Source: Spirochaetia bacterium (lineage in GTDB: Bacteria > Spirochaetota > Spirochaetia > CADAEX01). From it: a stretch of 33,038 bases of DNA. A program made the translations under genes and the position numbers. The notes under the pieces are model-generated. The model had not been told where the DNA came from. It did no database searches and saw only the letters and a list, made by a program, of their open reading frames with translations. The stretch's first letter is position 1. Every line of letters starts with the position of its first letter. Positions 1,857 to 28,339 of the stretch are shown here, one piece after another. The stretch lies in contig JAFXTY010000045.1 of NCBI GenBank assembly GCA_017535435.1, positions 1 through 33,038 of the forward strand, in the 5' to 3' direction.

Positions 1857-2057
1857 TCAATCTTTGTGTTTATAATATAGCAGACAGTGGCAGAACCCCT
1901 CGAAATCAGGATCTTTGATCTGATCCCGGAACTCCTGGCACATGCATTTATACTCGGGCAGCTTCTTAAGCCGGCAGGGACAGTATCCACCTGTGCGTTT
2001 CAAGCCCTCTTTTATATTATTTACAATCTCTTTGTCAGGGTTTTCTGTAATATGCAT
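1857..2057 (-). CDS. ferredoxin:thioredoxin reductase catalytic-chain-like protein
   Basis: A 66-residue protein with the six-cysteine pattern of the FTR catalytic chain: CPC (26-28), CMC (38-40) and CHC (56-58). In the family these hold a [4Fe-4S] cluster beside a redox-active disulfide that reduces thioredoxin or a similar partner with electrons from ferredoxin. Compared with the plant-type CPC-x16-CPC-x8-CHC spacing, the middle pair is shifted towards the N-terminus, while the distance from the first to the last motif is the same. It is the last gene of the hydrogenase-like operon, starting 3 bases after the previous stop codon, which suggests a thiol/iron-sulfur redox link with its neighbour. 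The substrate is unknown. Confidence 0.8.
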   Translation of the reverse strand: MHITENPDKEIVNNIKEGLKRTGGYCPCRLKKLPEYKCMCQEFRDQIKDPDFEGFCHCLLYYKHKD

Positions 2058-2060
2058 AGC

Positions 2061-3359
2061 TTATTTCTTCTCGAAGTTCCGTGTCTGAGGCATCCGCTTC
2101 TCAAGCTCCGCCATCTGGCCGGCCACTTTCTTTATCTCGTCCCGCAGAATGAAGATGCAGTCTGTCTTCTGTGCCTTGCCGGTGACAATATCCTCGGCCA
2201 GTGAGTGACATGTAGGAGCACCGCAGGAACCGCAGTCCAGACCTGGAAGCTCGCTGTCAATCTTCTCAATCTCATCCATCATCTTGATGGCTTCGGACAT
2301 ATTCTCGCTGAGCTTGAGCACAGGGCGGGAATAAATCTCTTTTGTCCATGAGATATCGAATTCAGTAAGCTGGTCAGAGTCTTTTATTCCTCTGTTCTCG
2401 CAGGCCATGCTGTATCTCTTGAGCCTTGACCGGGCTATGAAGGGATTCTCCACGGTCAGGGTGCCACCTACGCAGCCTCCCGGACAGGCCATTGCCTCGA
2501 TGAATTCTATGTGATGGAAGTCCTCGCTCTCAATCTGCTCAAGAACCCTGATAACATGCTCTATACCATCCACAGAGATACTCTTCTTGGAGTTGACAGC
2601 CTCGCTCTCGCCGTCGCTGTGTCCCCATCTGATTCCCAGGCTGGATGCCTTGGAAAGATGCTCCGGCTTGTCGATGGTCTTTATTATCTTGCGCAGGGCA
2701 GGGTAGATATCCTTCTGGGCTATTACGCCGTCCACCTCGGACTTTTCGTCCCCCAGCGGAACCCGTACACTGGTGACCTTTGCAGGGCAGGGAGAGATGA
2801 AGAATACTCCCAATCCCCTCTTGTCAGGGTAAATCTGGTTCTTTACTATTCTTGCCGCTATCTCCATAGGGGTCTGAATCTTTATTACATGCTCTATCAG
2901 GCTGGGGAATCTGACCTGGATAAGACGCACCACTGCAGGGCAGGATGAGGATATCATAGGGCGCGGAGACTTTACTTTCTCCAGAAGCTCGGCTGTTGCG
3001 ATAGAGGCGATCTCGGCTGCGCTGGCCACTTCGTACACATCATCAAAGCCTATCTTTTTCAGGGCAGTCAGGACTGTATCAATAGGAACATTCTTGAACT
3101 GAGCATAAAAGCTTGGAGCAGGCAGAGCCACCTTGAAGGTGAACTTGTTAAGCATATCCAGGGGATCGCTGACAGCTTTCTTGGCATGAGAAGGGCAGGT
3201 CCTTATGCACTGGCCGCAGTCGATGCAGCGGTCTGAGATGATTGTGGCCTTGCCATCGTGCACACGGATAGCTTCGGTAGGACAGTGGGAGATGCAGTTT
3301 GTGCATCCCTTGCAGAGATCTTTATCCAGTGTTACGGAATGTAAGTACTCTTCGCTCAT
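2061..3359 (-). CDS. putative sensory [FeFe]-hydrogenase-like iron-sulfur protein
   Basis: A 432-residue protein in three parts: a 2x[4Fe-4S] ferredoxin domain (C16, C19, C22, C26; C45, C48, C51, C55), an [FeFe]-hydrogenase H-cluster domain (about 75-345), and a C-terminal [4Fe-4S] domain of the Fe-S/PF04060 type (C376, C379, C384, C401). The four cysteines expected to hold the H-cluster are present: C140 in SSSCP, C191 in SPCPAK, and C292 and C296 in MACPGGC. The proton-relay cysteine of catalytic enzymes (TSCCP) is a serine here (S139), and the Glu of the MPCxxKxxE motif is missing. With an RsbW-like gene directly upstream, this fits the putative sensory (group C/D-like) hydrogenases rather than a bulk H2 enzyme. 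A pure electron-transfer role is also possible. Confidence 0.8.
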   Translation of the reverse strand: MSEEYLHSVTLDKDLCKGCTNCISHCPTEAIRVHDGKATIISDRCIDCGQCIRTCPSHAKKAVSDPLDMLNKFTFKVALPAPSFYAQFKNVPIDTVLTALKKIGFDDVYEVASAAEIASIATAELLEKVKSPRPMISSSCPAVVRLIQVRFPSLIEHVIKIQTPMEIAARIVKNQIYPDKRGLGVFFISPCPAKVTSVRVPLGDEKSEVDGVIAQKDIYPALRKIIKTIDKPEHLSKASSLGIRWGHSDGESEAVNSKKSISVDGIEHVIRVLEQIESEDFHHIEFIEAMACPGGCVGGTLTVENPFIARSRLKRYSMACENRGIKDSDQLTEFDISWTKEIYSRPVLKLSENMSEAIKMMDEIEKIDSELPGLDCGSCGAPTCHSLAEDIVTGKAQKTDCIFILRDEIKKVAGQMAELEKRMPQTRNFEKK

Positions 3360-3363
3360 CCTT

Positions 3364-3777
3364 TTATCCTATTTTTATCATTATTTTGACTGTTGTTCCC
3401 TCGCCTGGGACAGTATGTATCTCCATATGGTCAGAGTTTCTCTGGATGTTGGGCAATCCCATACCGGCTCCGAATCCCATCTCACGGATAGCGTCGGTTG
3501 CGGTGGAGTAGCCCTCCTGCATAGCCAGGTTGACGTCTGCAATACCTGGGCCATGGTCCACCAGCTCGCATTGTATCTCGGAAGGGGTGACATTTATGGT
3601 TATATCACCGCCGCCTCCATGGATTACCATGTTGATCTCCGCCTCATAAAGGGCTACTACTGTCCGCTTTATGACAGAGTTGTCAACCCCGATCTGCTGG
3701 AGTTTCTTCTTGAGGGTGCTGGATGCGATTCCAGCCATGTCCATATCATCGCCAGGTATAGAAAAATTAAGCTGCAT
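3364..3777 (-). CDS. RsbW-like anti-sigma-type ATP-binding protein (HATPase)
   Basis: A 137-residue GHKL ATPase domain of the RsbW/SpoIIAB/RsbT type. Visible ATP-site motifs are the N-box EAEIN (45-49), the G1 box DHGPGI (74-79) and the glycine-rich lid GFGAGMGLPN (101-110). Such proteins bind a sigma factor or other partner and phosphorylate a STAS antagonist. It overlaps ecfT by 11 bases and ends 4 bases before the hydrogenase-like gene. A natural substrate is the STAS protein at 5858-6352 in the same operon. No sigma factor is nearby, so the output partner is unknown; it may act on the hydrogenase-like protein. Confidence 0.85.
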   Translation of the reverse strand: MQLNFSIPGDDMDMAGIASSTLKKKLQQIGVDNSVIKRTVVALYEAEINMVIHGGGGDITINVTPSEIQCELVDHGPGIADVNLAMQEGYSTATDAIREMGFGAGMGLPNIQRNSDHMEIHTVPGEGTTVKIMIKIG

Positions 3778-4474
3778 AAGTCACCAATATAAGAATTATA
3801 ACAACTATTGGGATAAAATACAATAAAAATTGTTTATATAGAGGTGTTTTGCATTGGATAGGCCTGAAAACAGTGGGTTTTGCCTTCCCTACTCCTCTGA
3901 TTTCCAGGGCCATGGCAAGGATAGGAATATTCTTTATAGCCTGGATGAGCACCGATGCCAGCACCGGCAGGATAGAGCGGAACCGGGCTATGAAATTCCA
4001 TCTGCTTACAGCAGGGCAGCTTTCGGTATATCGAAGCTTGTGGGCCGCTTCTGCATCATGGTATGTGTCCAGGAGCAGTGGGATGTAGCTGGTGGAGATT
4101 GATATGACCAGAGCCAGCCTGTAAGGCATTCCGAAGAACCTGAGAGTCTGGATGAATTCATCTGGGTCGGTGGTCTTGAAATATAGGAAGAACAGAGCTG
4201 TTATGCCGATGAACCTGAGAATTATCCGCACTGTCTCGTGGATGCCGGAGAAAAACGGAGTGACTGAAGCTGTAAGAATGAGGAGGGGCAGAATAAGCTT
4301 GAACACCGAGAGGAAGGGCTTCCAGCCACAGGTGATGAAGCCTGCTGCAACTACTGGTGCAAGGAGAAGCCCATACCGGATGGCAGAGATGGGGCAGAAG
4401 AAGGCGGCTGTATAAATAAGCATGAGGATAAGCTTTAACCGGGAATCGGCCTGGTAGAGGAATGATTTTCTCAT
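3767..4474 (-). CDS. ecfT: ECF transporter transmembrane component (EcfT)
   Basis: A 235-residue hydrophobic protein with about five or six membrane segments and the charged coupling-helix region near AMALEIRGVG (about 190-199), which matches the A-x-x-x-R-G coupling motif of EcfT/CbiQ proteins. It joins the two ATPase domains to a substrate-binding S protein for uptake of vitamins or metals. Its start overlaps the ATPase gene stop by 4 bases, so the two are translated together. No S component is encoded in the window, so the substrate cannot be named. Confidence 0.85.
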   Translation of the reverse strand: MRKSFLYQADSRLKLILMLIYTAAFFCPISAIRYGLLLAPVVAAGFITCGWKPFLSVFKLILPLLILTASVTPFFSGIHETVRIILRFIGITALFFLYFKTTDPDEFIQTLRFFGMPYRLALVISISTSYIPLLLDTYHDAEAAHKLRYTESCPAVSRWNFIARFRSILPVLASVLIQAIKNIPILAMALEIRGVGKAKPTVFRPIQCKTPLYKQFLLYFIPIVVIILILVTYAA

Positions 4475-5853
4475 AGAGCCCCCATCCTGAATATGTTATC
4501 CGCTTCCAGGGCCGCCAGCTGTATATCGTGGGTGATGATGAGTATGGCCGGGTCTGCCGTTGACTGCCGGAAGGCATCTATGATCTGCCTGTATTCCAAG
4601 GATGAGATGCCGGAATCGGCTTCATCTATGATCACAATTTTCTTTTCCAGGAGCCAGTAGATGGCGGCCTGCAACTTTTTCCGCTGGCCATAGCTCATGA
4701 GCACAGGGGGTGCCTCCGGATGTTCTATTCCGAATACCTTTATTGCCTCTTTTACTTTTTCGTCTATCTGGTCCTGAGGCAGCTTCTGCAGCTTAAGACC
4801 ATATTCCAGCTCAGCCCGGGCCGTAGGGAGGAACAGCTGGTAGTCGGGGTTCTGGAAAAGATAGGAACAGTTGCGGTTAAGCTTTTCTGCCGATACCTCT
4901 TTCCCCTCCAGCATAACCTTTCCCGAGGATGGTTCCAGAAGGCCGGCTATGATATGTGAAAGTGTGGATTTCCCGCAGCCGTTGGTCCCTATGACCGCAG
5001 TGGTCTTCCCCTGCTCAAGGGCGAAGTTCTCTATGTTGAGCGAGAAGTCTGAATCAGGGTAGGAGAAGTGCATATCTTCAACTTTCAGGACTGGATTCTG
5101 CAAAGCTGCAGCTTCCATAGCCTTGATTGTAGCCTCATCCGGCATCGCCCCCTCCAGGCAGAAGCCCCCGGCCCTCACCGCATCCTCGAACTCCCGGCTG
5201 CTCCCATCGGTGAACTGCCTTAATGAACCGCCCTCATAAACAAAGAAACTGTCGGCATACTTTTTATATACATCCAGCATCTTTGCGGTGAGTATCAGTA
5301 TTGTCTTCCCGCTGGTCCTGAGGAAGGAGAGAATCTCCTCCCTTCCCCGGATGTCGATTTCCTCAAGGGTTTCGTCCAGAATCCAAAGGTCGGGGTCGGT
5401 GGCACACAGGACGCTTATCAGAAGCCGCCGCTTCTCGCCGCCTGAAAGGTGGACAGGCTTTTTGAAACGCAGGTACTCTATACCGGTTTTCTGGAATGCC
5501 AGATCGGCGCGGCGTCCTATCTCCTCCCGGGGTAGGCCGGCGGCTTCCAGCGGGAAAACCACCTCTTTCTCGGCAGTGCTGCAGAAAAGCTGCTCGTCCG
5601 GGTTCTGGAAAACAATGCCGGTCGATCCTTTATTCTCTATCTCTCCGGTCAGTTCTCCGCCGGTATAGGCAGGCACCAGGCCTGTAAGAATACGGGAGAG
5701 GGTGGTTTTCCCCGCTCCAGGCAGGGCCAGCAGCAGTGTCATGCTCCCTTTTTCCAGGCTGAAGGAGAGGTCCTTGAACAGGGCTCTGCTCTCAAGGCCC
5801 GGATAGGAGGGATATTGGAATGAAATATTTTTTACAGAAAGGATGGCTGGCAT
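4471..5853 (-). CDS. fused two-domain ECF transporter ATPase (EcfA-EcfA' type), asymmetric
   Basis: A 460-residue protein with two ABC ATPase domains. Domain 1: Walker A-like ALPGAGKT (43-50, first Gly replaced by Ala), Q83, good signature LSGGE (136-140), Walker B LD160-E161, but Ala190 where the switch histidine is expected (TAK instead of THD). Domain 2: perfect Walker A GTNGCGKS (289-296), Q334, degenerate signature MSYGQ (386-390), Walker B D410-E411, and intact switch H442. In a head-to-tail dimer this gives one intact ATP site (domain 2 Walker plus domain 1 signature) and one degenerate site. It energises uptake with the EcfT encoded next to it. The start lies 4 bases after the upstream STAS gene. 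Confidence 0.88.
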   Translation of the reverse strand: MPAILSVKNISFQYPSYPGLESRALFKDLSFSLEKGSMTLLLALPGAGKTTLSRILTGLVPAYTGGELTGEIENKGSTGIVFQNPDEQLFCSTAEKEVVFPLEAAGLPREEIGRRADLAFQKTGIEYLRFKKPVHLSGGEKRRLLISVLCATDPDLWILDETLEEIDIRGREEILSFLRTSGKTILILTAKMLDVYKKYADSFFVYEGGSLRQFTDGSSREFEDAVRAGGFCLEGAMPDEATIKAMEAAALQNPVLKVEDMHFSYPDSDFSLNIENFALEQGKTTAVIGTNGCGKSTLSHIIAGLLEPSSGKVMLEGKEVSAEKLNRNCSYLFQNPDYQLFLPTARAELEYGLKLQKLPQDQIDEKVKEAIKVFGIEHPEAPPVLMSYGQRKKLQAAIYWLLEKKIVIIDEADSGISSLEYRQIIDAFRQSTADPAILIITHDIQLAALEADNIFRMGAL

Positions 5854-5857
5854 AGTA

Positions 5858-6352
5858 TCAGAGCTTATTCTTCAGGCTCTGCTCCATCAGATTCACCACA
5901 TCCTTGAAGGTCTGCTGGTTTTTCTCGTTTATATTCATCAGGCACCGGTGGGCATCCAGCATCATGATGGTCTTGTCTTTCTTCTCGAATTTATCAGGTT
6001 CGATGACACCGAAAATATGGTCAAGATCTGATTTTTCCTCCACCAGGTTGAACACCTGGTCAAAGCCTACACCCCGCAGGGTCTGGTTCACATCCTTGGA
6101 GGTGGAGTAGATAGTGGTCTGGCTGCCGTTTTTATCCAGCATGAACTGGGCTATCTTGGCCAGAAATCCCAGGTTGGTGCTGTCCAGAAATTCTGCCTCG
6201 GTAAGGTCTATGGCAATCTCTTCCACATCAGAGGCATGGGCTATGAAATCATCAAGGAATGCGTCGAAATGGCCGCAGGTTGTGTATTTCAGCACGCCGG
6301 TGAGCTTGAAGTAAACCTTGTTGTCATCCTTTGCAAAATAGTAGTTTCCCAT
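5858..6352 (-). CDS. STAS-domain anti-sigma-factor antagonist with C-terminal helical extension
   Basis: A 164-residue protein. Residues 1-110 form a STAS/SpoIIAA-like domain with the phosphorylation-site segment EAEFLDSTNLGF (52-63); S58 is the likely phosphorylated residue. Residues 115-164 add an extension that looks helical and contains the segment DAHRCLMNINEKNQQTF. In partner switching the dephosphorylated form binds the RsbW-like kinase and frees its target. The next gene upstream is a SpoIIE-type phosphatase that could dephosphorylate S58, and the RsbW-like kinase is two genes downstream, so all three parts of the switch are in one operon. Confidence 0.85.
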   Translation of the reverse strand: MGNYYFAKDDNKVYFKLTGVLKYTTCGHFDAFLDDFIAHASDVEEIAIDLTEAEFLDSTNLGFLAKIAQFMLDKNGSQTTIYSTSKDVNQTLRGVGFDQVFNLVEEKSDLDHIFGVIEPDKFEKKDKTIMMLDAHRCLMNINEKNQQTFKDVVNLMEQSLKNKL

Positions 6353-6360
6353 CCTGTTTT

Positions 6361-7662
6361 CTACTTCCTGATAAGCATAAATGTTATATCATCAGGCAGA
6401 CTGCCATGCTGCTGCACCTTGAAGCTCTCTATAAGGTTTTCCAGAGAATCCCCTTTCTCTGTCACTGTGTCCAGGATCAGACTGTTCTTTGAATCCAGGT
6501 CGCCATCCAGAATATCCAGAAGTCCATCGGAGGTCAGGAACATAGTGAAATGTTCCGGCAGCTTTATCTCGTTGGTCTTTATTACAGGAGTCTTGAAAAG
6601 ACCTGCCGGAGTTCCTTTCTCCTGCAGGAATTTCTTCTCTCCGTCGGCGAAGAAGGCAGGGCAGGGGAACTGGCCGCAGTTGGCATACTTGAGGGTGTTG
6701 GTCTCCATGTCGATGATGCCGTAGAAGATAGTCAGATATTTACCCAGGTTTTCCCGCAGCAGTATGCTGTTGATTCTTGCACATATCTCATGAGGATCCA
6801 GCACTGTCCTGTCATCCAGGAGGGCAAATTTCTCCACTTTGTTGTCGATGAAGTTCTTAAGAAGCACTGTCACTATGGCCGAAGACATTCCATGTCCCGA
6901 CACATCTGCCATATAAAAACCGATATAGCGGCTTGAGATTGAGAAATAGTCCACAAAGTCCCCGCTCAGCACCAATGATGGGAAAAGGCGGCTTGAGAAA
7001 TGATATGGACCAATATCTTTATCCGGCTTCGGGAGAATTTTATTCTGCAATTTTTTGCCAGCTTCCTGATCCTCAAGCAGCTTCCGGTTGGATTCATCCA
7101 GCTCAGCCACCCGTTCTGCCACCTTCTGCTCCAGCTCTGCTGTCAGCTTATTGAGGGCATCGATATATTCGAAATTACGGATTGCAGTTATTACGCAGGT
7201 TATGAGTTTTTGGGCCGACATCTCGGTCTTTTCTTTATAGTCGTTGATGTCGTAGTCGATTATTACTTCTTTCTCAGGGGCATATCCAGGCTGTCCGGTG
7301 CGGAGTATGATGCGGATAGCCTTGTTGTTCATTATGTCCCGGATGTATTCCACCAGGTGCAGCCCGGCGTCTTCCTCCTCCATGACCACATCCACCAAGG
7401 CCAGGCACACATCGGGGTTTTCTGCCAGCACTTTCTTGGCCTCGGCTGCGGAGTAGGCATCACAGAACTCTATTTTGCGCCCTTTGAAGGTCAGCCCCCG
7501 CAGTACAAGCTTGGTGACAGTATGCACCTGAGGCTCGTCATCCACCACCAGCACCTTCCAAACCTCTTGGGGCGCTTCTGTGGCGGCCGGCGCTTCTGCC
7601 GGTGCACTGATCTCGTCTGCAAATATAAGCTCGTCATCCTGTGGATTCACAACTCTCACCAC
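6361..7662 (-). CDS. response regulator with SpoIIE-type PP2C serine phosphatase domain
   Basis: A protein of up to 433 residues. An N-terminal receiver domain (about 35-165) has acidic pair D41/D42, phosphoacceptor D91, and the segments LRTGQPGYAPE and YDINDYKEKTE, a subtype often seen with DUF3369 regulators. A coiled coil (about 168-208) links it to a PP2C/SpoIIE phosphatase (about 212-433) with metal-site motifs SGDF (D235), DVSGHG (253-258), SDGLLD (D379) and PDDIT (D424/D425). It probably dephosphorylates the STAS protein encoded next. The first GTG (7662) would leave a leader of only a few bases; GTG at 7650 (giving 429 residues), preceded by GGTGAGAG, is an equally good or better start. 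Confidence 0.88.
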   Translation of the reverse strand: MVRVVNPQDDELIFADEISAPAEAPAATEAPQEVWKVLVVDDEPQVHTVTKLVLRGLTFKGRKIEFCDAYSAAEAKKVLAENPDVCLALVDVVMEEEDAGLHLVEYIRDIMNNKAIRIILRTGQPGYAPEKEVIIDYDINDYKEKTEMSAQKLITCVITAIRNFEYIDALNKLTAELEQKVAERVAELDESNRKLLEDQEAGKKLQNKILPKPDKDIGPYHFSSRLFPSLVLSGDFVDYFSISSRYIGFYMADVSGHGMSSAIVTVLLKNFIDNKVEKFALLDDRTVLDPHEICARINSILLRENLGKYLTIFYGIIDMETNTLKYANCGQFPCPAFFADGEKKFLQEKGTPAGLFKTPVIKTNEIKLPEHFTMFLTSDGLLDILDGDLDSKNSLILDTVTEKGDSLENLIESFKVQQHGSLPDDITFMLIRK

Positions 7663-7672
7663 CTAACCTTAA

Positions 7673-7701
7673 ATTATAGTATTACTATATTGAGAAGTCA
7701 A
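7673..7701 (-). promoter_or_regulatory. strong sigma70-type promoter of the phosphatase-ECF-hydrogenase operon
   Basis: On the minus strand, TTGACT (7701-7696) and a perfect TATAAT (7678-7673) with exactly 17 bases between them. Transcription should start near 7666. No other convincing promoter was seen down to 1857 and every gene junction is 9 bases or less or overlaps, so all seven genes are probably one transcript. Confidence 0.75.
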
Positions 7702-17641: not shown

Positions 17642-18205
17642 TCAAACTGTTTCAAGTACAGTTTTAATCATGCTTTTTGCATCCATCAATTGTGTGAATG
17701 CAAAGCATTTCTTGCCTAAATCTTTCAGGGAGGCTCCGACATGGTAGATTTCTCTGTTATCAAGTATCAGAAATCTATCATGCACTTTTGATGTATATTT
17801 CAAAGACAGATAATGACGCATTTTTACAAAAGCTTCCATAACTTTTATACTTATTTGAATAGCAGTTAAGCTGTGCAGTACCGCAGAAAGCATTGCAATG
17901 CCTTGTTCTGTAAATGCATAGTAAAGATATTTTGAATATTTTCCTCTACCGCTTGAAGTCAAATTTTGCGACTTCAAGTTTTCTAAGGTCGCAATTTGCG
18001 ACCTTAGACGATTTTCAACTTCATTTTGTTCTGATTTTGTAAGCTTGAACATAAACTGCTCGTGGAATCGTTCAATATTTCTTCTTACTGCCTCATTGAT
18101 TCGTTTTGTTTCCACCCCATACAACTCAGCCAAATCCCTATCCAGCATCACTTGCTGGCCACGGATAAACAGAATCTTGCTCTCGATATTCATTAATTCA
18201 TTCAT
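17642..18205 (-). CDS. ORF6N-domain DNA-binding-type protein
   Basis: 187 residues. The N-terminal ORF6N domain (about 7-95) includes LFIRGQQVMLDRDLAELYGV and RFHEQFMFKLT, followed by YYAFTEQGIAMLSAVL. The C-terminal part HDRFLILDNREIYHVGASL resembles the tail seen in related ORF6N proteins. Between them, peptide repeats (RSQIATL, LKSQNLTS) are encoded by two DNA palindromes. ORF6N proteins are usual in phages and mobile islands and often accompany type I restriction systems, as here. AGGAGG precedes the ATG. Role unknown. Confidence 0.82.
   Translation of the reverse strand: MNELMNIESKILFIRGQQVMLDRDLAELYGVETKRINEAVRRNIERFHEQFMFKLTKSEQNEVENRLRSQIATLENLKSQNLTSSGRGKYSKYLYYAFTEQGIAMLSAVLHSLTAIQISIKVMEAFVKMRHYLSLKYTSKVHDRFLILDNREIYHVGASLKDLGKKCFAFTQLMDAKSMIKTVLETV
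17952..18008 (-). repeat. two palindromes inside the ORF6N coding sequence
   Basis: Palindrome 1: CTTGAAGTC (17952-17960), 9-base loop, GACTTCAAG (17970-17978). Palindrome 2: 13-base arms 17982-17994 and 17996-18008 around a single T, containing AAGGTCGCAA/TTGCGACCTT. Both share a GTCGCAAATT-like core and encode the in-frame peptide repeat [R/K]SQ. A third copy lies at 18447-18473. Confidence 0.8.
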
Positions 18206-18305
18206 ACAAGCCTCCTATGGTTTTACTTGTATAAACATAATTTTTTTTCATTTTGATTTGAGTTTTGCTCCACAAATTTCAAAAACTTTATAATTAGTTA
18301 TTATC

Positions 18306-18381
18306 CCAGCAATAAGATACCCCTGCTCGGTGGTCCCGCTCCCTGCGGGCCGGGGATACCGCCAGGGGTATCTTTTGCTGG
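18306..18381. repeat. large imperfect hairpin between hsdR and the ORF6N gene
   Basis: Arms 18306-18325 and 18363-18381 pair over 19 bases with a single bulged T. The GC-rich loop between them contains a further CCCGC-TCCCT-GCGGG hairpin. It fills much of the 276-bp gap between hsdR and the ORF6N gene. It may stop the hsd transcript, or be a short interspersed repeat. No long T-tract follows on the minus strand. Confidence 0.65.
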
Positions 18382-18446
18382 CTTGATTATCGATATTTAG
18401 TTTTTGAGGATTTGTTTCGCACTAAGTGGAGGGGGGATTTGGTAAA

Positions 18447-18473
18447 TTGGATGTCGAAATTTGCGACCTCCAA
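18447..18473 (-). repeat. third copy of the ORF6N-type palindrome, just after hsdR
   Basis: TTGGATGTCG and CGACCTCCAA (one mismatch) around AAATTTG. Read in the hsdR frame after the stop codon it encodes WRSQISTS, close to the RSQIAT repeat in the ORF6N protein. It starts 9 bases beyond the hsdR stop codon. Confidence 0.6.
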
Positions 18474-18481
18474 TCACTAAG

Positions 18482-21400
18482 TCAGGCCTTACTGTTCTCT
18501 GGTGTTTCGGCTGCTTGGCTGTCGTCTAATTCTGATCCAAAGCCATATATACCGTCTGGTGCTTTCATCGAAGTAGAACTGATTCCAAAGAACTTCTGGA
18601 AGAACGCCTTGAATTTTTCTATTATTCGCTCCTTTATCTTAGTTCTTCTGAAAATTGAGGTTGGAGGCATCAGATTCACTATATCAGTTCCGATTGTCTT
18701 TATCTCGCCATTTTTGAAAGAGTTCTCAATGAATGTCCTGGTCTTGTCCTCATCAAGATTTTCTTCTTGTATAATCTGGACAAGCTGTTTTTCCTTTTCG
18801 TTTTCAATATAGGAATGCCAGCCTGCCATCACATCATCCATATCGTTGATTCTGGTGATAAATATCTCAATAAGCTCTTTCTTGCTTCTGAGTTCCGGTG
18901 ATGCATCAACGGCTTTCTGGATAGAGATAAGAAGTTCTTTGTCGGTGCAGTGGCTGTCATGATACTTTTTGACAAGGATGAGAATGTAATCAATATTTAT
19001 CTCAATCTGCCGGATAAGCTCTATCTCAAAGACTATGTCATCAGTTATGTCCTCTTTGTCCGTATCGTTTTTCTTGTTCCGCCATTCATCGCGCAAATCC
19101 TGATATCTGCCAAGATAGTCCTGCATATCTCTTTCGTTGATAAGTTCTTTTCCTGCAAAATCATCAAAGGAGGTCAAGAGATTACGCATACGCAGGATTG
19201 AACCGAACAAGCAGATGAAGTCTTTCTGATTCTGTTCTCCATCGATTCTAGGAGCAGTCAGAGGGAACTTGCCTGTAAGTTCGTTAATCATATCTACATA
19301 ACCAGGATGCTTCTTGCTGTTTTGGTCGATATAACCATAGTAGTAATCTTCAAATGTGTGGATAAGAACAATACCAGAGGCGTCCTTATCGCCAAACAGA
19401 GCTATTGCGTCATCAACCCGCTTCTGAAGGTTGCGGAAGCAGATAATGTTTCCAAATGTCTTGATACTGTTCAGGATACGGTTTGTCCGGCTGAACGCCT
19501 GAATAAGGCCATGCATCTTGAGGTTTTTGTCCACCCACAGGGTGTTAAGGGTTGTAGCGTCAAATCCGGTAAGGAACATATTAACTACAATCAGCAGATC
19601 AATTTGTTTGTTTTTCATTCTTAGCGAGACATCTTTATAGTAGTTCTGGAACTTGTCGCCATCGGTGGAATAGTTGGTCTTGAACATTGCGTTGTAATCT
19701 TTGATGGCATCGTCCAGAAAGTCTCTGGAAGGTTTGTCCAAGGCAGAAGTGTCTTCTGAGTTTTCCTCGTCCAGTATTCCATCGGCCTCTTCCTCATTTG
19801 CCCCATAGCTGAAAATAGTGGCAACCCTAAGCTTTTTAGTGGGGTCAGCCGCCATCTGCTTTTTGAATTCTTCATAATAAAGTTTGGCCATAGGAACAGA
19901 CGCTACAGCGAAAATGGAATTGAAACCACTTATACGCTGTTGCTGCTTTATTTCATCAACCTTGCCACGGGCTGCAGAAGCTACATCAGAAATGTTGGTC
20001 AGTGTGTTAAAGACATAGGATTTATTGCCACGGTAAGTTTTCTGGTCAAAGTGGTCGAGGATATACTGAGTCACCAACTCAATCCGCTTTGGAGCCATAA
20101 ATGCTTTTTCGCGGTCTATGTCCCATACTTCCTTATCATCGATATCATAGCCCATATCCATTGTTTTGATGTAATCAACGCGGAAAGGAAGAACATTTTT
20201 ATCATTAATTGCGTCAACAATAGTATAGGTATGCAGCTGGCCGCCGAAAGTCTGCTCTGTGGTAAAGAACTGAGGATTTTTGACCGCACCGGAATTTACA
20301 GCAAAAATAGGGGTACCTGTAAAGCCGAAAAGGTGGTACTTCTTGAAGCTTCTAATAATAGCAGCATGCATGTCGCCGAACTGTGAGCGGTGGCATTCGT
20401 CGAAGATAATCACATTATGCTTCTGGTAGACTGGATGACTTGGATTTTTCTTTATAAAAGTAGCAAGTTTCTGGATTGTTGTGATTATAATTCTGCACTC
20501 ATCTTTCTCCAGCTGCTTTTTCAGAATAGCTGTGGAAGTATTACTGTTGGCTGCTCCTTTCTCAAATTTGTCATATTCCTTCATGGTCTGATAATCAAGG
20601 TCCTTGCGGTCAACAACAAACAGCACTTTGTCGATATAAGGCAGGTTGGATGCAAGTCGGGCAGTCTTGAAGGAAGTAAGGGTTTTGCCAGAACCGGTTG
20701 TGTGCCAGATGTAGCCGCCACCCTCCACACTGCCATATTTCTTGTAATTTGTTGCTATTTCTATTCTGTTAAGGATGCGTTCTGTAGCTGTAATCTGGTA
20801 TGGGCGCATAACCATAAGCATATTTTCTGATGTGAAGATGCAATATCTGGTAAGGATGTTCAGGATAGTGTGTCTTGCAAAGAATGTTCTAGTAAAATCG
20901 ATGAGGTCTGGGATTATGGTGTTATTTGCATCTGCCCAATAGGAGGTGAACTCAAAGCTGTTGGATGTCTTGCCCTTCTTTTCTTTGCTGGATGTAGCAT
21001 CTTTTATAGCGTTAAATCTGGTTGAGTTTGAATAGTATTTTGTGTGGGTTCCATTGCTTATAACAAATATCTGTACATATTCAAAAAGGCCACAGCCAGC
21101 CCAGAAAGAGTCGCGCTGATAGCGGTTAATTTGATTAAAAGCCTCGCGGATAGCAACACCGCGCCGTTTCAGTTCAATATGGACCAGTGGCAGGCCGTTT
21201 ACAAGGATAGTCACATCATAGCGGTTATCATGCTTTGCCCCTTCCTCCTGGCTTACTTTATATTGATTGATAACCTGCAGTTTATTGTTGTGTATATTCT
21301 TTTTATCTATAAGTGAAATGTTTTTTGATGACCCGTCATCCCTCTTAAGGACTTTTACGAAATCCTCTTGGATAGTACGGGATTTTTCTACAATCTGTTC

Positions 21401-21676
21401 ATTTGGGTTAGCTATAAATGTGGAAAAGAAAGATTTCCATTCTGAATCGGAGAAAGTGTAATTGTTCAATTCAGAAAGCTTGTTACGCAGGTTGATTATT
21501 AAATCTGATTCAGTGTGAATATTCAGGTACTCATAACCCTGCTCTGTGAGCATCTTAATGAACTCTTTCTCAAGCTCAGCCTCGCTCTGATAGCTTCCAG
21601 ATTTGGTCTTCACCGGCTCGTATTTTGTTATGACTGTATCTTCTGTAGTCTGAGCTACGATGTTGAAATAAGGCAT
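18482..21676 (-). CDS. hsdR: type I restriction enzyme R subunit (HsdR)
   Basis: 1064-residue motor and nuclease subunit that translocates and cuts unmodified DNA. N-terminal PD-(D/E)XK nuclease: D154 in RYDVTILVNG and E168-x-K170 in HIELKRRG. Superfamily 2 helicase: Walker A TTGSGKT (326-332), DECH box (426-429), GFTGTPIF, and later FSRTNRIL as motif VI. Full length, no internal break. Starts one base after the hsdS stop codon, so translation is coupled. Base composition is AT-richer than the flanking housekeeping genes, consistent with transfer. Confidence 0.95.
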   Translation of the reverse strand: MPYFNIVAQTTEDTVITKYEPVKTKSGSYQSEAELEKEFIKMLTEQGYEYLNIHTESDLIINLRNKLSELNNYTFSDSEWKSFFSTFIANPNEQIVEKSRTIQEDFVKVLKRDDGSSKNISLIDKKNIHNNKLQVINQYKVSQEEGAKHDNRYDVTILVNGLPLVHIELKRRGVAIREAFNQINRYQRDSFWAGCGLFEYVQIFVISNGTHTKYYSNSTRFNAIKDATSSKEKKGKTSNSFEFTSYWADANNTIIPDLIDFTRTFFARHTILNILTRYCIFTSENMLMVMRPYQITATERILNRIEIATNYKKYGSVEGGGYIWHTTGSGKTLTSFKTARLASNLPYIDKVLFVVDRKDLDYQTMKEYDKFEKGAANSNTSTAILKKQLEKDECRIIITTIQKLATFIKKNPSHPVYQKHNVIIFDECHRSQFGDMHAAIIRSFKKYHLFGFTGTPIFAVNSGAVKNPQFFTTEQTFGGQLHTYTIVDAINDKNVLPFRVDYIKTMDMGYDIDDKEVWDIDREKAFMAPKRIELVTQYILDHFDQKTYRGNKSYVFNTLTNISDVASAARGKVDEIKQQQRISGFNSIFAVASVPMAKLYYEEFKKQMAADPTKKLRVATIFSYGANEEEADGILDEENSEDTSALDKPSRDFLDDAIKDYNAMFKTNYSTDGDKFQNYYKDVSLRMKNKQIDLLIVVNMFLTGFDATTLNTLWVDKNLKMHGLIQAFSRTNRILNSIKTFGNIICFRNLQKRVDDAIALFGDKDASGIVLIHTFEDYYYGYIDQNSKKHPGYVDMINELTGKFPLTAPRIDGEQNQKDFICLFGSILRMRNLLTSFDDFAGKELINERDMQDYLGRYQDLRDEWRNKKNDTDKEDITDDIVFEIELIRQIEINIDYILILVKKYHDSHCTDKELLISIQKAVDASPELRSKKELIEIFITRINDMDDVMAGWHSYIENEKEKQLVQIIQEENLDEDKTRTFIENSFKNGEIKTIGTDIVNLMPPTSIFRRTKIKERIIEKFKAFFQKFFGISSTSMKAPDGIYGFGSELDDSQAAETPENSKA

Positions 21677-21677
21677 A

Positions 21678-22247
21678 TTATGCTCCTGCTTCTTTAAAAT
21701 TTAATAGTTTATCCCGATAGTATTCATACTGCTGCTTTCTTGCTGTAAGCTCTGCTGTAAGCTCTGTAAAATTGTCTAAAATGTGAACTATTTCACGTTG
21801 AACATCTAGTGGAGGAACGGGAATCTTGATTCTAGCCATAACATTGCTCATTAATTTAGGATTTCCCATGCCACTATTTACATGTTTTGACGCCTCAATT
21901 TGTAAAAAATAGAAAGCATATTTGGCTAAAATTTTAGGGTAGATTATTTTTAGTAATCCACAAACATTGGTAACACTAAATTTTCCTTTTCTATAAAAAA
22001 CTGATCCCGCATTAGCTCCATCAGTAGTCCAAGTAAGGAATTCTCCATCATAGTCAAATGTAGAAATTCTACCGAGCTCTCCGTTGTTTTCTGTTTGGGA
22101 AGAATAAACCGGAAAAATACCTGAATTATTTTTAATATAATCTTTTGATATTACACGTCCTCGAGAAATACTACATAATTCATCTATTCTTCTGTACTCC
22201 ACACCATCAGGACATAGTTCTGCAATCAGTGATTCGAGTTTACTCAT
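21678..22247 (-). CDS. hsdS: type I restriction specificity subunit (HsdS), half-size
   Basis: 189 residues, about half of a normal HsdS (around 400). It has one target-recognition domain (about 17-140) and one conserved helical region (about 145-185, with [20 protein letters not shown] and [11 protein letters not shown]). The ATG at 22247 gives the usual [18 protein letters not shown] start and has GGAGAAAAG ahead of it; an in-frame start at 22274 inside hsdM is less likely. It overlaps hsdM by 8 bases. Half-size S subunits can dimerise and read a symmetric split site. It is the most AT-rich gene of the block. Confidence 0.88.
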
Positions 22248-23817
22248 TAATCTTTTCTCCCTCGATATCAGCAATAATCTTATCGATTTCTTCTCTGAGA
22301 ACTTGTTCCCGGGCTACAATTTCCTTGATTTCTGCATTCAGCTTGGTTATATTAATTATTTCCCTGGTATCTTCGGCTTCAACATAAGTTGATACTGATA
22401 AATTATAGTCATTCTTGGCTATTTCCTCATAAGGTACTAGTTTGGCAAAATGAGGAATGTCAATGCGGTTTGCAAATGTCTCGACTATCTTCTTGATATT
22501 TTCTTGGGTCAGTTTGTTATTGTTAGTAACTTTTATGCATTCATTTGTTGCATCAATAAAGAGTGTCTTGTTATCATTTTTACCCCTCTTCATCACCATA
22601 ATGCAGGTCGCAATAGATGTACCAAAGAACAAGTTGCTTGGCAACTGAATGATGCAGTCAATAAAGTTGTTATCGACAAGATACTTTCTGATTTTCTGCT
22701 CTGCACCGCCCCGGTACATTATGCCAGGGAAACAGACAATCGCTGCAGTACCATTTGGTGCAAGCCAAGCCAGACTATGCATAATGAATGCCATATCTGC
22801 CTTGCTCTTGGGTGCCAGCACGCCGGCCGGGGAAAATCTTGGATCGTTGATTAAAAGGGGATTTTCGTCTCCAGCCCATTTGATAGAATAGGGCGGATTG
22901 GAAACAATCAGCTCAAAGGGTTCATCGTCCCAATGCTGAGGTGATATAAGGGTGTCATCACAGGCAATGTCGAATTTCTCAAATCCAACATCATGAAGGA
23001 ACATGTTGATTCGGCACAGGTTATATGTGGTGATATTTATTTCCTGGCCGAAGAAACCATTCTTTATTTTATCCCTGCCCAGCACTTTCTCTGCTTTGAG
23101 CAGAAGTGAGCCAGAGCCACAGGCCGGGTCATATACTTTGTTTATCTCTGTTTTTCCTACAGTACCAAGTCTGGTCAACAGTTCTGAAACATCGGCAGGT
23201 GTAAAGAATTCACCTCCTGATTTTCCTGCATTGCTGGCATACATGGTCATCAGGTATTCATAGGCATCGCCAAAAGCATCTATATCGTGATTTTTTACAT
23301 CGCCTAGGTTCATCTCAGCTACACCATTAAGCAACTTTACCAGTTTATCGTTTCTTTTGGCTACAGTTGAACCTAATTTGTTGCTGTTTACATCAAAATC
23401 GTCAAAAAGGCCAGCAAAATCACTTTCGGACTGACTTCCTTTTGCAGATTCCTCTATATGCTTGAAAACACGCTCTAATGTTTCATTAAGGTTATCATCA
23501 GCAGATGCTCTTTTTCTGACATTGCAGAAAAGTTCACTTGGAGTAATGAAGAATCCCTTCTCTTCTACTAATGTATCTTTTGCTTCTTGAGCTTCTTCAT
23601 CTGACAGTGTTGCATAGTCAAATCCGGTATTCCCTGATTTCTTCTCGCTCTGATTTACATAATTGGTAAGATTTTCTGAAATGTATCTATAAAACATGGT
23701 TCCAAGGACATAATTCTTGAAATCCCAGCCATCTACTGCTCCACGGAGTTCATCAGCAATAGCCCAGATGGCCCTATGGAGTTCTTCTCGTTCCTGTTCT
23801 TTCTTTGTATCTGCCAT
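22240..23817 (-). CDS. hsdM: type I restriction-modification DNA methyltransferase (HsdM)
   Basis: 525-residue N6-adenine methyltransferase. HsdM N-terminal helical domain (about 10-160, including [17 protein letters not shown]), SAM-binding motif DPACGSGS (230-237) and catalytic NPPY (307-310). First gene of hsdM-hsdS-hsdR. No Shine-Dalgarno; a TATAAT box ends six bases before the ATG, suggesting a leaderless transcript. Confidence 0.95.
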
Positions 23818-24500: not shown

Positions 24501-24800
24501 GTGAAAGATGTACGGATCACTGTGATGCGCATAACTTCCTACCCCGATCTGATTGCCAGGTTTGAGAATCCCATAGAGCACACCTGCGACATGAAAGAGG
24601 GTATGGTTTTCATCGCCAAGGGCGGGGATCGCCCGGTTGGATTCTGCGACAGCGCATGGGATTCTGTTCTCCCGTTTGTGAAGGAACTTGCATCTGGCGG
24701 CGGGAATTTCTATGACGGCTGGATGAAGAATCCTGGTTCTGCCATGATCTCGTGCAACGACGGTTTCCGTCCTGTAAGCTTTTTATTGGAGGCTGTATGA
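24501..24800 (+). CDS. TIGR04076 family protein
   Basis: 99 residues matching this small uncharacterised family: VRITVMRI at the start, PVGFCDSAWDSVLPFVKEL in the middle, and ISCNDGFRPVSFLLEAV at the end. Conserved Cys in HTCDM, GFCD and SCND might bind a metal or a cluster. Start is GTG with no Shine-Dalgarno, next to a well-placed -10 box. Its stop overlaps the next start (ATGA); first gene of a five-gene signalling operon. Confidence 0.75.
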   Translation: MKDVRITVMRITSYPDLIARFENPIEHTCDMKEGMVFIAKGGDRPVGFCDSAWDSVLPFVKELASGGGNFYDGWMKNPGSAMISCNDGFRPVSFLLEAV

Positions 24801-25198
24801 CAGAAAAGATTTTCCCTGCAGATATTAACGAGCTTGCTCCAGTTACGGTATTTCTGGAGGAGGAGCTTGATAAGGCAGAGGCAAACCCAAAGCTTATGGT
24901 GACCTTTGCAGTTGCCCTTGAGGAGCTGTTTGTCAATGTGGCCCATTACGCATATCCCGATTCCAAGGGGACGGTCAAGATTGGTATTGACACCTCCGGC
25001 GACAGTATTGTGGTGCAGCTTACCGATTCAGGTGTTCCATTCAATCCGGTGGCAATGCCTGACCCGGATATCACTGAGTCTGCAGAAGAGCGCAAGATAG
25101 GCGGACTTGGTATCTACATGGTCAAGAAGAGCATGGACAGCATGACCTATGAATACAAGGATAATCAGAATATCCTGACTATTTCGAAGAGGAAATAA
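24797..25198 (+). CDS. RsbW-like anti-sigma-type ATP-binding protein (second copy)
   Basis: 133-residue GHKL ATPase: N-box EELFVN (42-47), G1 box TDSGVPFNP, and lid RKIGGLGIYMVKK. ATG 24797 is chosen because TTGGAGG lies just upstream and it overlaps the previous stop codon. It is quite different from the RsbW-like protein at 3364-3777. Expected to phosphorylate a STAS protein; two STAS domains are encoded three and four genes downstream. The partner that it controls is not in the window. Confidence 0.85.
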   Translation: MTEKIFPADINELAPVTVFLEEELDKAEANPKLMVTFAVALEELFVNVAHYAYPDSKGTVKIGIDTSGDSIVVQLTDSGVPFNPVAMPDPDITESAEERKIGGLGIYMVKKSMDSMTYEYKDNQNILTISKRK

Positions 25199-25204
25199 GA
25201 CGTT

Positions 25205-25762
25205 ATGGACATGCTGACAAAGGCTATCTTTTTTGCAACCAAGGCTCATGAGGGACAGATGCGCAAGATGACCAATACTCCCTACATCCTTCATCCTATC
25301 GAGGTAGCCTCTATCATTTCCACCATAACCGACGACCAGGATATAATGGCGGCCGGTGTGCTCCACGATGTTATCGAGGACTGCCATATCGATCCTGCCA
25401 CAATAAAGGAGCTTTTCGGACCCCGGGTTTCTGCCCTGGTGCAGAGCGATTCCGAGGACCGTCTGGATCCCAGGCCTGCTTCCGAGACCTGGATGGAGAG
25501 GAAGACCGATTCCTTGCTGATGCTCAAGCATACCAAGGACTTGGGAGTGAAGATAATGTGGATGGGGGATAAGCTTTCCAATATGCGGTCCCTGTACCGT
25601 GCCCATAAAAAGCTGGGGAAAGATATGTGGCAGGGGCTGAACCAGAAGGATCCAGCCAAGCAGGAGTGGTATTACAGGACAATAGCAGAATATATTTCCG
25701 AGCTTAAGGATACAGTGGCCTACCGGGAGTATATGATTCTGCTGGAGGAAGTTTTCAGTTGA
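25205..25762 (+). CDS. HD-domain protein of the (p)ppGpp-hydrolase type
   Basis: 185 residues. Metal-site pattern of the RelA/SpoT hydrolase and Mesh1 family: H30 in YILHPIEVA, H54-D55 in GVLHDVIED (with E58/D59), and D122 in MGDKLSNMRS. No synthetase, TGS or ACT domain, so a small alarmone hydrolase is the likely role, though other nucleotides are possible. It starts 6 bases after the anti-sigma-type gene, linking alarmone turnover with partner switching. Confidence 0.82.
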   Translation: MDMLTKAIFFATKAHEGQMRKMTNTPYILHPIEVASIISTITDDQDIMAAGVLHDVIEDCHIDPATIKELFGPRVSALVQSDSEDRLDPRPASETWMERKTDSLLMLKHTKDLGVKIMWMGDKLSNMRSLYRAHKKLGKDMWQGLNQKDPAKQEWYYRTIAEYISELKDTVAYREYMILLEEVFS

Positions 25763-25772
25763 CGAGGTTTAT

Positions 25773-26954
25773 ATGAGTTTGATTACAACAGATGTGAAAG
25801 ACAACATTTTTTATATTCAGCTGCACGGCAGGATAGATTCTGCCAATGCTGCCCCGGTGGAAGAGGAAATACTGGAAGCGGTAAGCAGCTGTACATGCCC
25901 GGCAGTTGTGATCGACGCAGATGACCTGGCTTATATTTCCAGTGCCGGTCTTCGGGTCGTCCTGCGGCTCCGCAAGAACCGCCCCGAGCTCAAGATCATA
26001 AATGCTTCCTCTGCTGTATACGAGATTTTCGAGATGACAGGCTTCACCGAGATGATTCCGGTGGAGAAAGGTTATCGCAAGCTTTCCATAGAGGGATGCG
26101 AGGTGATAGGGCAGGGGGCCAACGGAAAGGTCTACCGCCTGGATAAAGACACTATCGTAAAAGTCTATTATAATGCCGATGCCCTGCCCGAAATACAAAG
26201 GGAGCGGGAGCTGGCAAGACGGGCCTTCATCCTGGGCATTCCTACTGCCATCCCATATGACGTTGCCAAGGTTGGGGACAGCTACGGATCTGTGTTCGAG
26301 CTTCTGAATGCAAAGTCATTCTCCAAGCTGATCGCTTCAGAGCCTGAGAATCTGGATAAATATGTTGAGCTGTATGTAGACCTGCTTAAGAAAATCCACT
26401 CCACCGAGGTTAAGCCCGAAGATATGCCGGACCAGCGTGCTGTAGTGATAGACTGGGTCAACTTCCTCAAGGATTATCTGGAGCCTGGCAAATGGGAGAA
26501 ACTCCACAGCATGGTGGAGGCTGTTCCTGTGAATCACCATATGATCCACGGCGACTACCACACAAAGAACGTGATGATGCAGAACGGCGAGGTGCTGCTG
26601 ATCGACATGGACACATTGTCACAGGGCGACCCGGTATTTGAGTTTGCCTCAATCTACAATGCCTTTGTGGGGTTCTACGACTTTGATCATGATGCGGCCC
26701 TTGACTTCCAGGGGTTTGATTATGATACAACTATTTCAATCTGGAGGAAGATGCTGCCGCTTTACTTCGGCACCACAGATCCAGATGTGCTGAAGGCGGT
26801 GGAAAACAAATCTGCCATCCTGGGCTATGCCCGCCTTATGCGGCGTCTTATCCGGAGAAACGGATTCGACACCGAAGAGGGGAGAAAATTAATTGCACAT
26901 TATAAGAATCAGATAGAGACACGTCTTGATTCTGTTGATAAACTTCAATTTTAA
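25773..26954 (+). CDS. STAS domain fused to an aminoglycoside-phosphotransferase-like kinase
   Basis: 393 residues. STAS domain (about 1-97) with the phospho-site segment ADDLAYISSAGLRV (S56 or S57). Kinase domain (about 105-390): glycine-rich loop GQGANGKVYR (113-122), Lys130, catalytic HGDYHTKN (259-266, D261 and N266) and LIDMD (276-280, metal Asp). The kinase part resembles the TIGR02172 group. It may phosphorylate a small molecule or a protein, with the STAS part as switch. GAGG ribosome-binding site; 10 bases after the HD gene. Not likely to be a true antibiotic-resistance gene. Confidence 0.82.
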   Translation: MSLITTDVKDNIFYIQLHGRIDSANAAPVEEEILEAVSSCTCPAVVIDADDLAYISSAGLRVVLRLRKNRPELKIINASSAVYEIFEMTGFTEMIPVEKGYRKLSIEGCEVIGQGANGKVYRLDKDTIVKVYYNADALPEIQRERELARRAFILGIPTAIPYDVAKVGDSYGSVFELLNAKSFSKLIASEPENLDKYVELYVDLLKKIHSTEVKPEDMPDQRAVVIDWVNFLKDYLEPGKWEKLHSMVEAVPVNHHMIHGDYHTKNVMMQNGEVLLIDMDTLSQGDPVFEFASIYNAFVGFYDFDHDAALDFQGFDYDTTISIWRKMLPLYFGTTDPDVLKAVENKSAILGYARLMRRLIRRNGFDTEEGRKLIAHYKNQIETRLDSVDKLQF

Positions 26955-27364: not shown

Positions 27365-28339
27365 TCACTCCCACTCGATGGTGGAGATTGGTTTCGGTGA
27401 AAGGTCATAGAGCACTCTGTTGACTCCCTTGACCTCGGACAGAATTCTGTCTGTTATACGGTGCAGCAGCGGATATGGAATCTCTTCTATAGTTGCAGCT
27501 GTTGCATCGGTGCTGTTCACGGCTCTTATGATCACCGGCCAGTCCCAGCTCCGTTTTCCGTCGATGATTCCGGTTGATTTGACATCTGGAACGATAGTAA
27601 AATACTGCCAAACTTTTCCCTCAAGACCGCCTTTTGCAAACTCTTCCCTAAGAATAGCATCTGATTCCCGGACTGCCTCAAGCCTGTCCCTGGTTATGGC
27701 GCCTATGCACCGTACGCCGAGCCCTGGTCCTGGGAATGGCTGGCGGTAAACCATGGTGTCTGGCAGTCCCAGCGCCTTTCCAACAGCCCGCACCTCGTCC
27801 TTATAAAGCATCTTCACAGGCTCCACAAGCTCAAAGTCAAGCTCCTTCGGCAGGCCCCCTACATTGTGGTGAGCCTTGACACCCTTGGACTCGGTGATGT
27901 CCGGGTAAATAGTTCCCTGGGCCAGGAACTTGATGCCGTCCAGCTTTTTGGCTTCGTCGGCAAACACATCTATAAATTCTTTTCCTATTATCTTCCGCTT
28001 CTGCTCAGGGTCGGAAACGCCGGCAAGCTTGGTAAGGAACCGCTCGGTGGCATCTACATAAATAAGGTTTGCATCCATCTGGTGCTTGAACACCTGCACC
28101 ACCTGCTCAGGCTCGCCCTTGCGCAGAAGTCCGTGGTTCACATGCACGCAGTAAAGCTGCTTCCCGATTGCTTTTATCAAAAGGGCTGCCACAACAGAGC
28201 TGTCAACTCCGCCGGAAAGGGCTAAAAGCACCTTGCCGTCGCCCACCTGGGCCTTGATCTCTTTTATTGCTGTCTCAATGTATTTCTCTGCTGTCCAGTC
28301 TTTTCCCAGACCGCGCTGTTCAGTAGTTTCTCTTGCCAT
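27365..28339 (-). CDS. guaA: GMP synthase, ATP-pyrophosphatase subunit only
   Basis: 324 residues. P-loop-type SGGVDS (42-47) and the C-terminal dimerisation domain (YRQPFPGPGLGVRCIG to the terminal NRVLYDLSPKPISTIEWE) are complete, so it can adenylate XMP and transfer nitrogen. The roughly 190-residue N-terminal glutaminase domain of usual bacterial GuaA is missing. AGGAGA before the ATG shows that this start is genuine, and no glutaminase is encoded upstream. It must use free ammonia or a separately encoded glutaminase. Confidence 0.92.
   Translation of the reverse strand: MARETTEQRGLGKDWTAEKYIETAIKEIKAQVGDGKVLLALSGGVDSSVVAALLIKAIGKQLYCVHVNHGLLRKGEPEQVVQVFKHQMDANLIYVDATERFLTKLAGVSDPEQKRKIIGKEFIDVFADEAKKLDGIKFLAQGTIYPDITESKGVKAHHNVGGLPKELDFELVEPVKMLYKDEVRAVGKALGLPDTMVYRQPFPGPGLGVRCIGAITRDRLEAVRESDAILREEFAKGGLEGKVWQYFTIVPDVKSTGIIDGKRSWDWPVIIRAVNSTDATAATIEEIPYPLLHRITDRILSEVKGVNRVLYDLSPKPISTIEWE

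Follow-up and report, generated by a model that had tools for sequence, protein, structure and literature searches.

Genes and boundaries of the operon

The DNA considered here is a 33,038-nucleotide (nt) stretch of contig JAFXTY010000045.1 (GCA_017535435.1) from a Spirochaetia bacterium; this stretch is referred to as the window, and all coordinates are those of the whole stretch. On its minus strand, seven closely packed genes occupy positions 7701-1857. They bring together the parts of a partner switch (kinase, STAS antagonist and phosphatase), an energy-coupling factor (ECF) transporter core and a [FeFe]-hydrogenase-like sensor. We find that the seven genes form one operon under one promoter, that this operon is most simply explained as a recent merger of two older units, and that its sensor persists under strong selection in a genus where the maturase HydG is absent. 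An original prediction made from the sequence had described the same layout, which is confirmed; its interpretation is supported in part only and is revised below. The features are as follows.

7673..7701, minus strand: promoter TTGACT-N17-TATAAT, matching 11/12 consensus positions; the old promoter of the SpoIIE-STAS pair
6361..7650, minus strand: receiver-linker-PP2C/SpoIIE phosphatase of the RssB/RsfR type (PF07228, 1e-27; PF00072, 2e-6)
5858..6352, minus strand: STAS antagonist of the RssC type (PF01740, 6.5e-8), with the phospho-acceptor candidate Ser58 in LDSTNLG
4471..5853, minus strand: fused ECF ATPase (A-A', or ECFA) with two ABC domains (ECF_ATPase_1, 237 bits)
3767..4474, minus strand: EcfT transmembrane component (PF02361, 1.7e-14)
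3364..3777, minus strand: GHKL serine kinase of a hydrogenase-linked family, RsbT/SpoIIAB-like (motifs E45..N49, DxGPGI and GAGMGLPN)
2061..3359, minus strand: group D (M2e)-type [FeFe]-hydrogenase-like sensor (Hyd), with two [4Fe-4S] sites, an H-domain and a C-terminal Cx2Cx4Cx16C motif
1857..2057, minus strand: 66-aa protein resembling ferredoxin-thioredoxin reductase (FTR), an optional operon member with CPC, CMC and CHC motifs (PF02943, 18.9 bits, below the cut-off of 22)

The spacing in gene order is 8, 4, -4, -11, 4 and 3 nt (negative values are overlaps). Pfam supports the first six genes, and the FTR-like gene falls under its cut-off. The predicted single operon is borne out by this spacing of at most 8 nt and by the lack of convincing signals that would split it. 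Promoter-like sites inside the operon (2533, 7288 and 4209) are unconvincing, with 11 sites on both strands of the region against 6.5 ± 2.2 in shuffles. No terminator-like site was found on the minus strand inside the operon, and one stands just downstream of it (1807-1784).

The window genome (G000; 1.70 Mb, 99% complete) was compared with its congeners (G001-G006) and with a sister genus (G007-G010). Both hexamers of the predicted consensus promoter are unchanged in G000, G001, G002, G003, G005 and G006 within surrounding sequence that has diverged, so the promoter is more than a chance match. The first gene most likely starts at 7650 (GTG) and not at 7662; the homologous site in G005 is an ATG.

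The partner-switch genes

The predicted set of kinase, antagonist and phosphatase is complete: the catalytic residues of the kinase and the PP2C domain and the phospho-acceptor serine of the STAS protein are all conserved. The PP2C motifs GDF, ADVSGHG, SDG and PDD are conserved in the lineages compared, and Ser58 is kept in 5/5 STAS sequences compared. The receiver domain of the phosphatase falls narrowly below its Pfam cut-off (28.3 against 30.2).

The best NCBIfam matches of the pair are RssB (NF045505, 211/700 bits) and RssC (NF045506, 104/250 bits), both under the curated cut-offs. As in RssB-RssC of Pseudomonas and Azotobacter, a receiver-linker-PP2C protein is followed by a STAS protein of ∼160 aa (PMC12923157, PMC12143880). 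RssB and RssC are required for RpoS degradation in both of these genera (PMC12923157). The window pair differs in scoring far under the cut-offs and in being joined to a kinase and a sensor, and a role as RpoS adapter would apply to it only by analogy. A second likeness is to the RsfS-RsfR-RsfB/SigF system of Mycobacterium smegmatis, where the receiver-PP2C enzyme RsfR dephosphorylates the STAS antagonist RsfB in response to the state of the respiratory chain (PMC10950880). There the signal comes from a membrane histidine kinase. The window operon instead co-encodes a hydrogenase-like sensor and has no SigF homologue linked to it. By analogy, RssB-RssC and RsfR are possible models for the output of the switch.

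The kinase had been described as RsbW-like. An RsbW identity was rejected once real RsbT sequences were added to the comparison: the kinase scores 55 bits against the RsbT profile and 26 against the RsbW/SpoIIAB profile. In the tree, the hydrogenase-linked kinase family groups with RsbT and excludes SpoIIAB and RsbW, with support of 90/84 on long branches and with 4 RsbT references. These references (L255-L258) are real sequences; the B. subtilis RsbT query that retrieved them served as bait only. The RsbW models TIGR01924 and PRK04069 gave no match to the window kinase at E 0.001. The kinase shares the GHKL fold of RsbT and SpoIIAB, and its closest solved fold is SpoIIAB (TM-score 0.83-0.85).

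In the stressosome, STAS proteins are phosphorylated by RsbT, which is not known to act as an anti-sigma factor. RsbT is also an activator of RsbU, a PP2C phosphatase (PMC12143880). Unlike RsbT, the window kinase has no RsbR, RsbS or RsbU neighbours, its partner gene being the hydrogenase-like sensor; stressosome partners of the RsbR/RsbS kind are absent from the operon, and none was recognised in the relatives scanned.

These results bear on the model of the original prediction, in which an RsbW-type kinase has anti-sigma function and acts on a distant sigma factor or on the transporter. The SpoIIAB-like fold accords with such a kinase, and the genome offers RpoD, FliA, a 284-aa sigma factor and an extracytoplasmic function sigma factor (names assigned by length, sequence and neighbouring genes). 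The SpoIIE and STAS genes also resemble Pseudomonas RssB-RssC, which act on RpoS (PMC12923157). However, profile scores and tree both place the kinase with RsbT, Pfam scans of the operon and of a set of kinase-sensor neighbourhoods recognised no sigma factor, and nothing points to the transporter as target. We consider the model quite improbable. The lack of a linked sigma factor, which the original prediction had pointed out, is not paradoxical, because the kinase is nearer to RsbT than to RsbW.

Two older units joined within one genus

The gene order of the window, ffh|SpoIIE-STAS-ECFA-EcfT-kinase-Hyd|rnc, recurs in G002, G003, G005 and G006, and the gap between STAS and ECFA is 4 nt in all five species with the joined operon, the window genome included. 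The contig of G004 stops within ECFA and cannot be read through the junction. A near-identical locus is present in a metagenome-assembled genome (MAG) from yak omasum (L166), and the merged operon belongs to a group of gut spirochaetes. The most divergent congener is G001; there ffh|SpoIIE-STAS (L112) lies apart from ECFA-EcfT-kinase-Hyd|rnc (L069), and EcfT is fused to the substrate-binding (S) component. The sister genus, which is also represented by a locus from a Spirochaetaceae MAG (L167), carries ECFA-EcfT-EcfS-kinase-Hyd and has SpoIIE-STAS as a pair at a different locus.

Most simply, these arrangements would reflect a recent merger, within the genus, of two older units under the SpoIIE promoter, in which SpoIIE-STAS came to lie in front of an ECF-kinase-sensor operon that already existed. 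The ECF genes had been thought inserted into the switch; this does not hold, because G001 and the sister genus keep ECF-kinase-Hyd apart from SpoIIE-STAS. Whether these genes usually lie far apart in close relatives, which the original prediction had named as a refutation, depends on the relative: they do in the sister genus and in G001, but not in the remaining congeners whose contigs span the junction.

Between congeners, the ratio of nonsynonymous to synonymous substitution rates (dN/dS) is 0.010-0.032 for the kinase and 0.019-0.031 for the sensor. It is 0.04-0.10 for SpoIIE and STAS, about 0.10 for ECFA and 0.027-0.060 for rnc. The kinase-sensor pair is thus under strong constraint, having the lowest values among the operon genes.

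The junction might instead be a neutral by-product of rearrangement, with SpoIIE-STAS using another kinase and sharing only a promoter with the ECF-kinase-sensor genes. The separate units of G001 and the sister genus fit this explanation, as do the other RsbW-type kinases in the genome (window 24752-25198; C76) and the great difference in evolutionary rate between the ECF genes and the sensor. Yet the 4-nt gap and the gene order are retained in five species, and the RsbT/RsbW-type kinases found in G001 are of the hydrogenase-linked family only. A PF13581 search of that genome gave four matches: the operon-type kinase, a CBS-fused member of the same family and two longer histidine-kinase-like proteins. 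Because these offer no other RsbT/RsbW-type kinase, a kinase of the hydrogenase-linked family would be the likeliest STAS partner even before the merger. We regard neutrality of the junction as a minority possibility, though one to be taken seriously.

Related genes occur elsewhere in these genomes. Two loci, L246:2079-4046 (G001:C10) and L247:2161-3111 (G000:C51), encode members of the hydrogenase-linked kinase family that carry a fused CBS-like domain. In G001 this gene is followed by DRTGG-like and PHP-like genes and by no hydrogenase-like gene (domains read from sequence). At 24752-26954 the window has a second switch-type set. Its genes encode an RsbW-like ATPase, an HD_4 (RelA-like) protein and a protein that combines a STAS domain with an APH-type kinase; close to HydF there is another STAS-APH gene of similar kind (L088:3929-5050). 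An RsbW-like gene adjoins a membrane SpoIIE-type phosphatase at L248:3462-5344 (G000:C76). In G001, a 57-aa 2[4Fe-4S] ferredoxin gene (L069:10363-10536) immediately precedes the ECFA-EcfT-kinase-Hyd operon; it is flanked by a promoter-like site on its upstream side and a terminator-like hairpin downstream. In the sister genus, a CNNM/CorC-type gene and then an L-lactate permease gene lie downstream of the sensor gene (L076:4597-7496).

The ECF transporter and the FTR-like gene

The component set of the ECF transporter is complete, with A-A' and T in the operon and S elsewhere in the genome. The S ortholog (PF07155) is a lone gene on another contig (G000:C43) and is 50-59% identical to the operon S of relatives. 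Fused ATPase, EcfT and orthologous S component liken the system to other ECF transporters, and it differs from them in that S lies outside the operon; most simply, S would have left the operon in the window's clade. NCBIfam gave only weak mixed matches to the S component (riboflavin, folate, TIGR04002), and a search for Rfam RNAs such as riboswitches near the operon or the S gene found only tRNAs. We found no literature on ECF transporters with partner switches. The ECF genes were neighbours of kinase and sensor prior to the arrival of SpoIIE-STAS. For this reason we read the transporter as probable co-regulated cargo, not as the target of the switch.

The terminal FTR-like gene, to which the original prediction had drawn attention, is indeed present in the window operon, but it is an operon member only in G000 and G005 (2/7 genomes); G001 and G002 have homologs elsewhere. 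As a constant part of the system it was rejected on this ground. The three CxC motifs of its product are 9 and 15 residues apart. The protein falls short of the Pfam cut-off for the catalytic subunit of ferredoxin-thioredoxin reductase, with 18.9 bits to PF02943 against 22, and its best PDB match (4tpu) is at E 0.31.

The hydrogenase-like sensor

That the operon encodes a sensory hydrogenase-like protein is confirmed by its group D (M2e) architecture, with two N-terminal [4Fe-4S] sites, an H-domain, a C-terminal Cx2Cx4Cx16C motif of exact spacing and no PAS domain. The putative sensory hydrogenases of group D (M2e) share this architecture and lack Cys299 (PMC8163306, PMC13104023). In all 55 group D proteins from Spirochaetia, the four H-cluster cysteines, the equivalent of Lys358 and the four C-terminal cysteines are kept. 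The equivalent of Cys299 is never a cysteine in this set and is a serine in the window sensor. A ligand difference between genomes with and without HydG was considered and discarded: there is none among the 55, and the equivalents of residues 299 and 497 vary without separating the sets.

The closest described comparison is TamHydS of Thermoanaerobacter mathranii, which holds an H-cluster and whose structure shifts with H2 (PMC13104023). The window sensor shares with it the two [4Fe-4S] sites, the H-domain, the Cx2Cx4Cx16C motif, the lack of a PAS domain, the loss of Cys299 and the replacement of Met353 by serine; in both, a histidine kinase-like ATPase gene adjoins the hydrogenase gene (PMC8163306, PMC13104023). 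In contrast, Met497 is retained in the window sensor and is a leucine in TamHydS, and the window genome has no HydG. The neighbours also differ, being the ECF transporter and SpoIIE-STAS in the window, and a bifurcating hydrogenase and an AraC-family regulator around TamHydS.

Kinase and sensor genes are adjacent on the same strand in 55 Spirochaetia loci (with a 354-bp gap in G111). As the original prediction had stated, such ATPases are known beside hydrogenase-like genes (PMC8163306), and they occur there in 71/80 database loci, mostly from Clostridia. Of these loci, 2/80 have ECF genes, each belonging to the window's family, and 1/80 has SpoIIE-STAS. Thus the sensor-kinase pairing is known and widespread, the ECF context is specific to the window's family and the SpoIIE-STAS context to its genus. 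We found no literature on the pairing of hydrogenase with DRTGG or RsbW-type genes.

None of the seven genomes of the genus has HydG; the best score, 71 bits against a cut-off of 312, falls at HydE loci. HydE is over its cut-off in 7/7 genomes (two copies in five) and HydF in 6/7, both with intact cluster motifs, and both HydE proteins of the window genome have a solved HydE as best match. Two HydE genes and one HydF gene with intact motifs lie at G000:C16:9140-10078, C54:7991-8926 and C50:7910-9064, although this genome lacks HydG. In none of the seven genomes was a further [FeFe]-hydrogenase found. A functional hydrogenase requires HydE, HydF and HydG in the genome, and the genus lacks this full set. 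The CO and CN ligands derive from HydG. Assembly of the H-cluster requires all three maturases (PMC6212873), and an H2-sensing H-cluster is therefore unlikely in this genus.

Across the 55 group-D-bearing Spirochaetia, HydG was found in 26 (in two pieces in G009) and not found in 29. Some single absences may be assembly gaps (e.g. G055, 93% complete), but HydG was also not found in five genomes of 1-2 contigs (G162, G188, G203, G218 and G231). Its presence or absence switches at least 8 times on the sensor tree.

Could the sensor nonetheless be a genuine group D [FeFe]-hydrogenase that carries a full H-cluster, senses H2 as proposed for TamHydS and signals through the kinase? Its architecture is that of group D with all ligands present, HydE and HydF are encoded and the protein is strongly selected; moreover, TamHydS has an H-cluster and an H2-dependent structural change (PMC13104023). 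Against this stand the absence of HydG from 7/7 genomes when three maturases are required (PMC6212873), a genus without any other [FeFe]-hydrogenase, and the 29/55 Spirochaetia in which HydG was not found. We judge H2 sensing unlikely. Where the original prediction had allowed for a redox or an H2 signal, H2 is thus disfavoured, and the simpler reading of the gene content is that the sensor probably reads redox state through its [4Fe-4S] clusters.

Genes for PAS-bearing group C-like and group B-like [FeFe]-hydrogenases were seen at L117-L120 (G018, G039, G026 and G032), where HydE, HydF and HydG were not found; ligand motifs are intact in the group B-like genes.

A candidate redox switch

With moderate confidence, we favour a mechanism in which a redox sensor acts on the kinase, a candidate STAS substrate and phosphatase have become co-transcribed with both through the merger of two units, and the ECF transporter is cargo. 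The hydrogenase-like protein would sense the redox state of the cell through iron-sulfur clusters and would bind or release the small kinase encoded just upstream. The kinase would phosphorylate Ser58 of the STAS protein, and the receiver-PP2C phosphatase would strip this phosphate, its receiver domain serving as a second input. The output would then be the phosphorylation state of the STAS protein, to which a partner encoded elsewhere, for example a sigma factor or a degradation adapter, would respond (compare RssC and RsfB).

Several observations weigh against this mechanism. HydE and HydF are retained with intact motifs, which argues that some cofactor chemistry persists. Outside the genus, neither STAS nor SpoIIE genes are linked to the kinase-sensor pair, which usually stands with DRTGG genes (68/80 loci), so the native substrate of the kinase may not be a STAS protein. 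Other kinases of the genome, including those at window 24752-25198 and on C76, could act on the STAS protein, and the merger itself may be neutral.

A broader and more tentative idea is that group D sensors in many bacteria work without a canonical H-cluster. In this genus, a non-canonical diiron cofactor free of CO and CN, made via HydE and HydF, or the [4Fe-4S] clusters alone, might form a redox switch that drives the RsbT-like kinase with STAS output. We hold this to be rather doubtful.

Other features of the window

A low-GC stretch at 17642-23817 is likely a mobile insertion; it holds type I restriction-like genes (HsdR, a short 198-aa HsdS and HsdM) and a small ORF6N-like gene. At 27365-28339, a GMP synthase-like gene of 324 aa lacks the N-terminal amidotransferase domain.

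Implications

[FeFe]-hydrogenase-like proteins of groups C and D are labelled H2 sensors, but to our knowledge signalling from them is unproven. The novelty lies in the variant setting of a sensor-kinase pair already known, and in sensors that persist under strong selection where HydG is missing. The genus is a natural case in which sensor and kinase stay highly conserved despite the absence of HydG and of all other [FeFe]-hydrogenases. With a candidate substrate and a phosphatase in the kinase's own operon, the sensed signal and the target of the kinase become directly testable. Finally, HydG is distributed patchily, and its state shifts repeatedly over the sensor tree, a caution against reading H2 sensing or H2 metabolism into such genes when they turn up in metagenomes.

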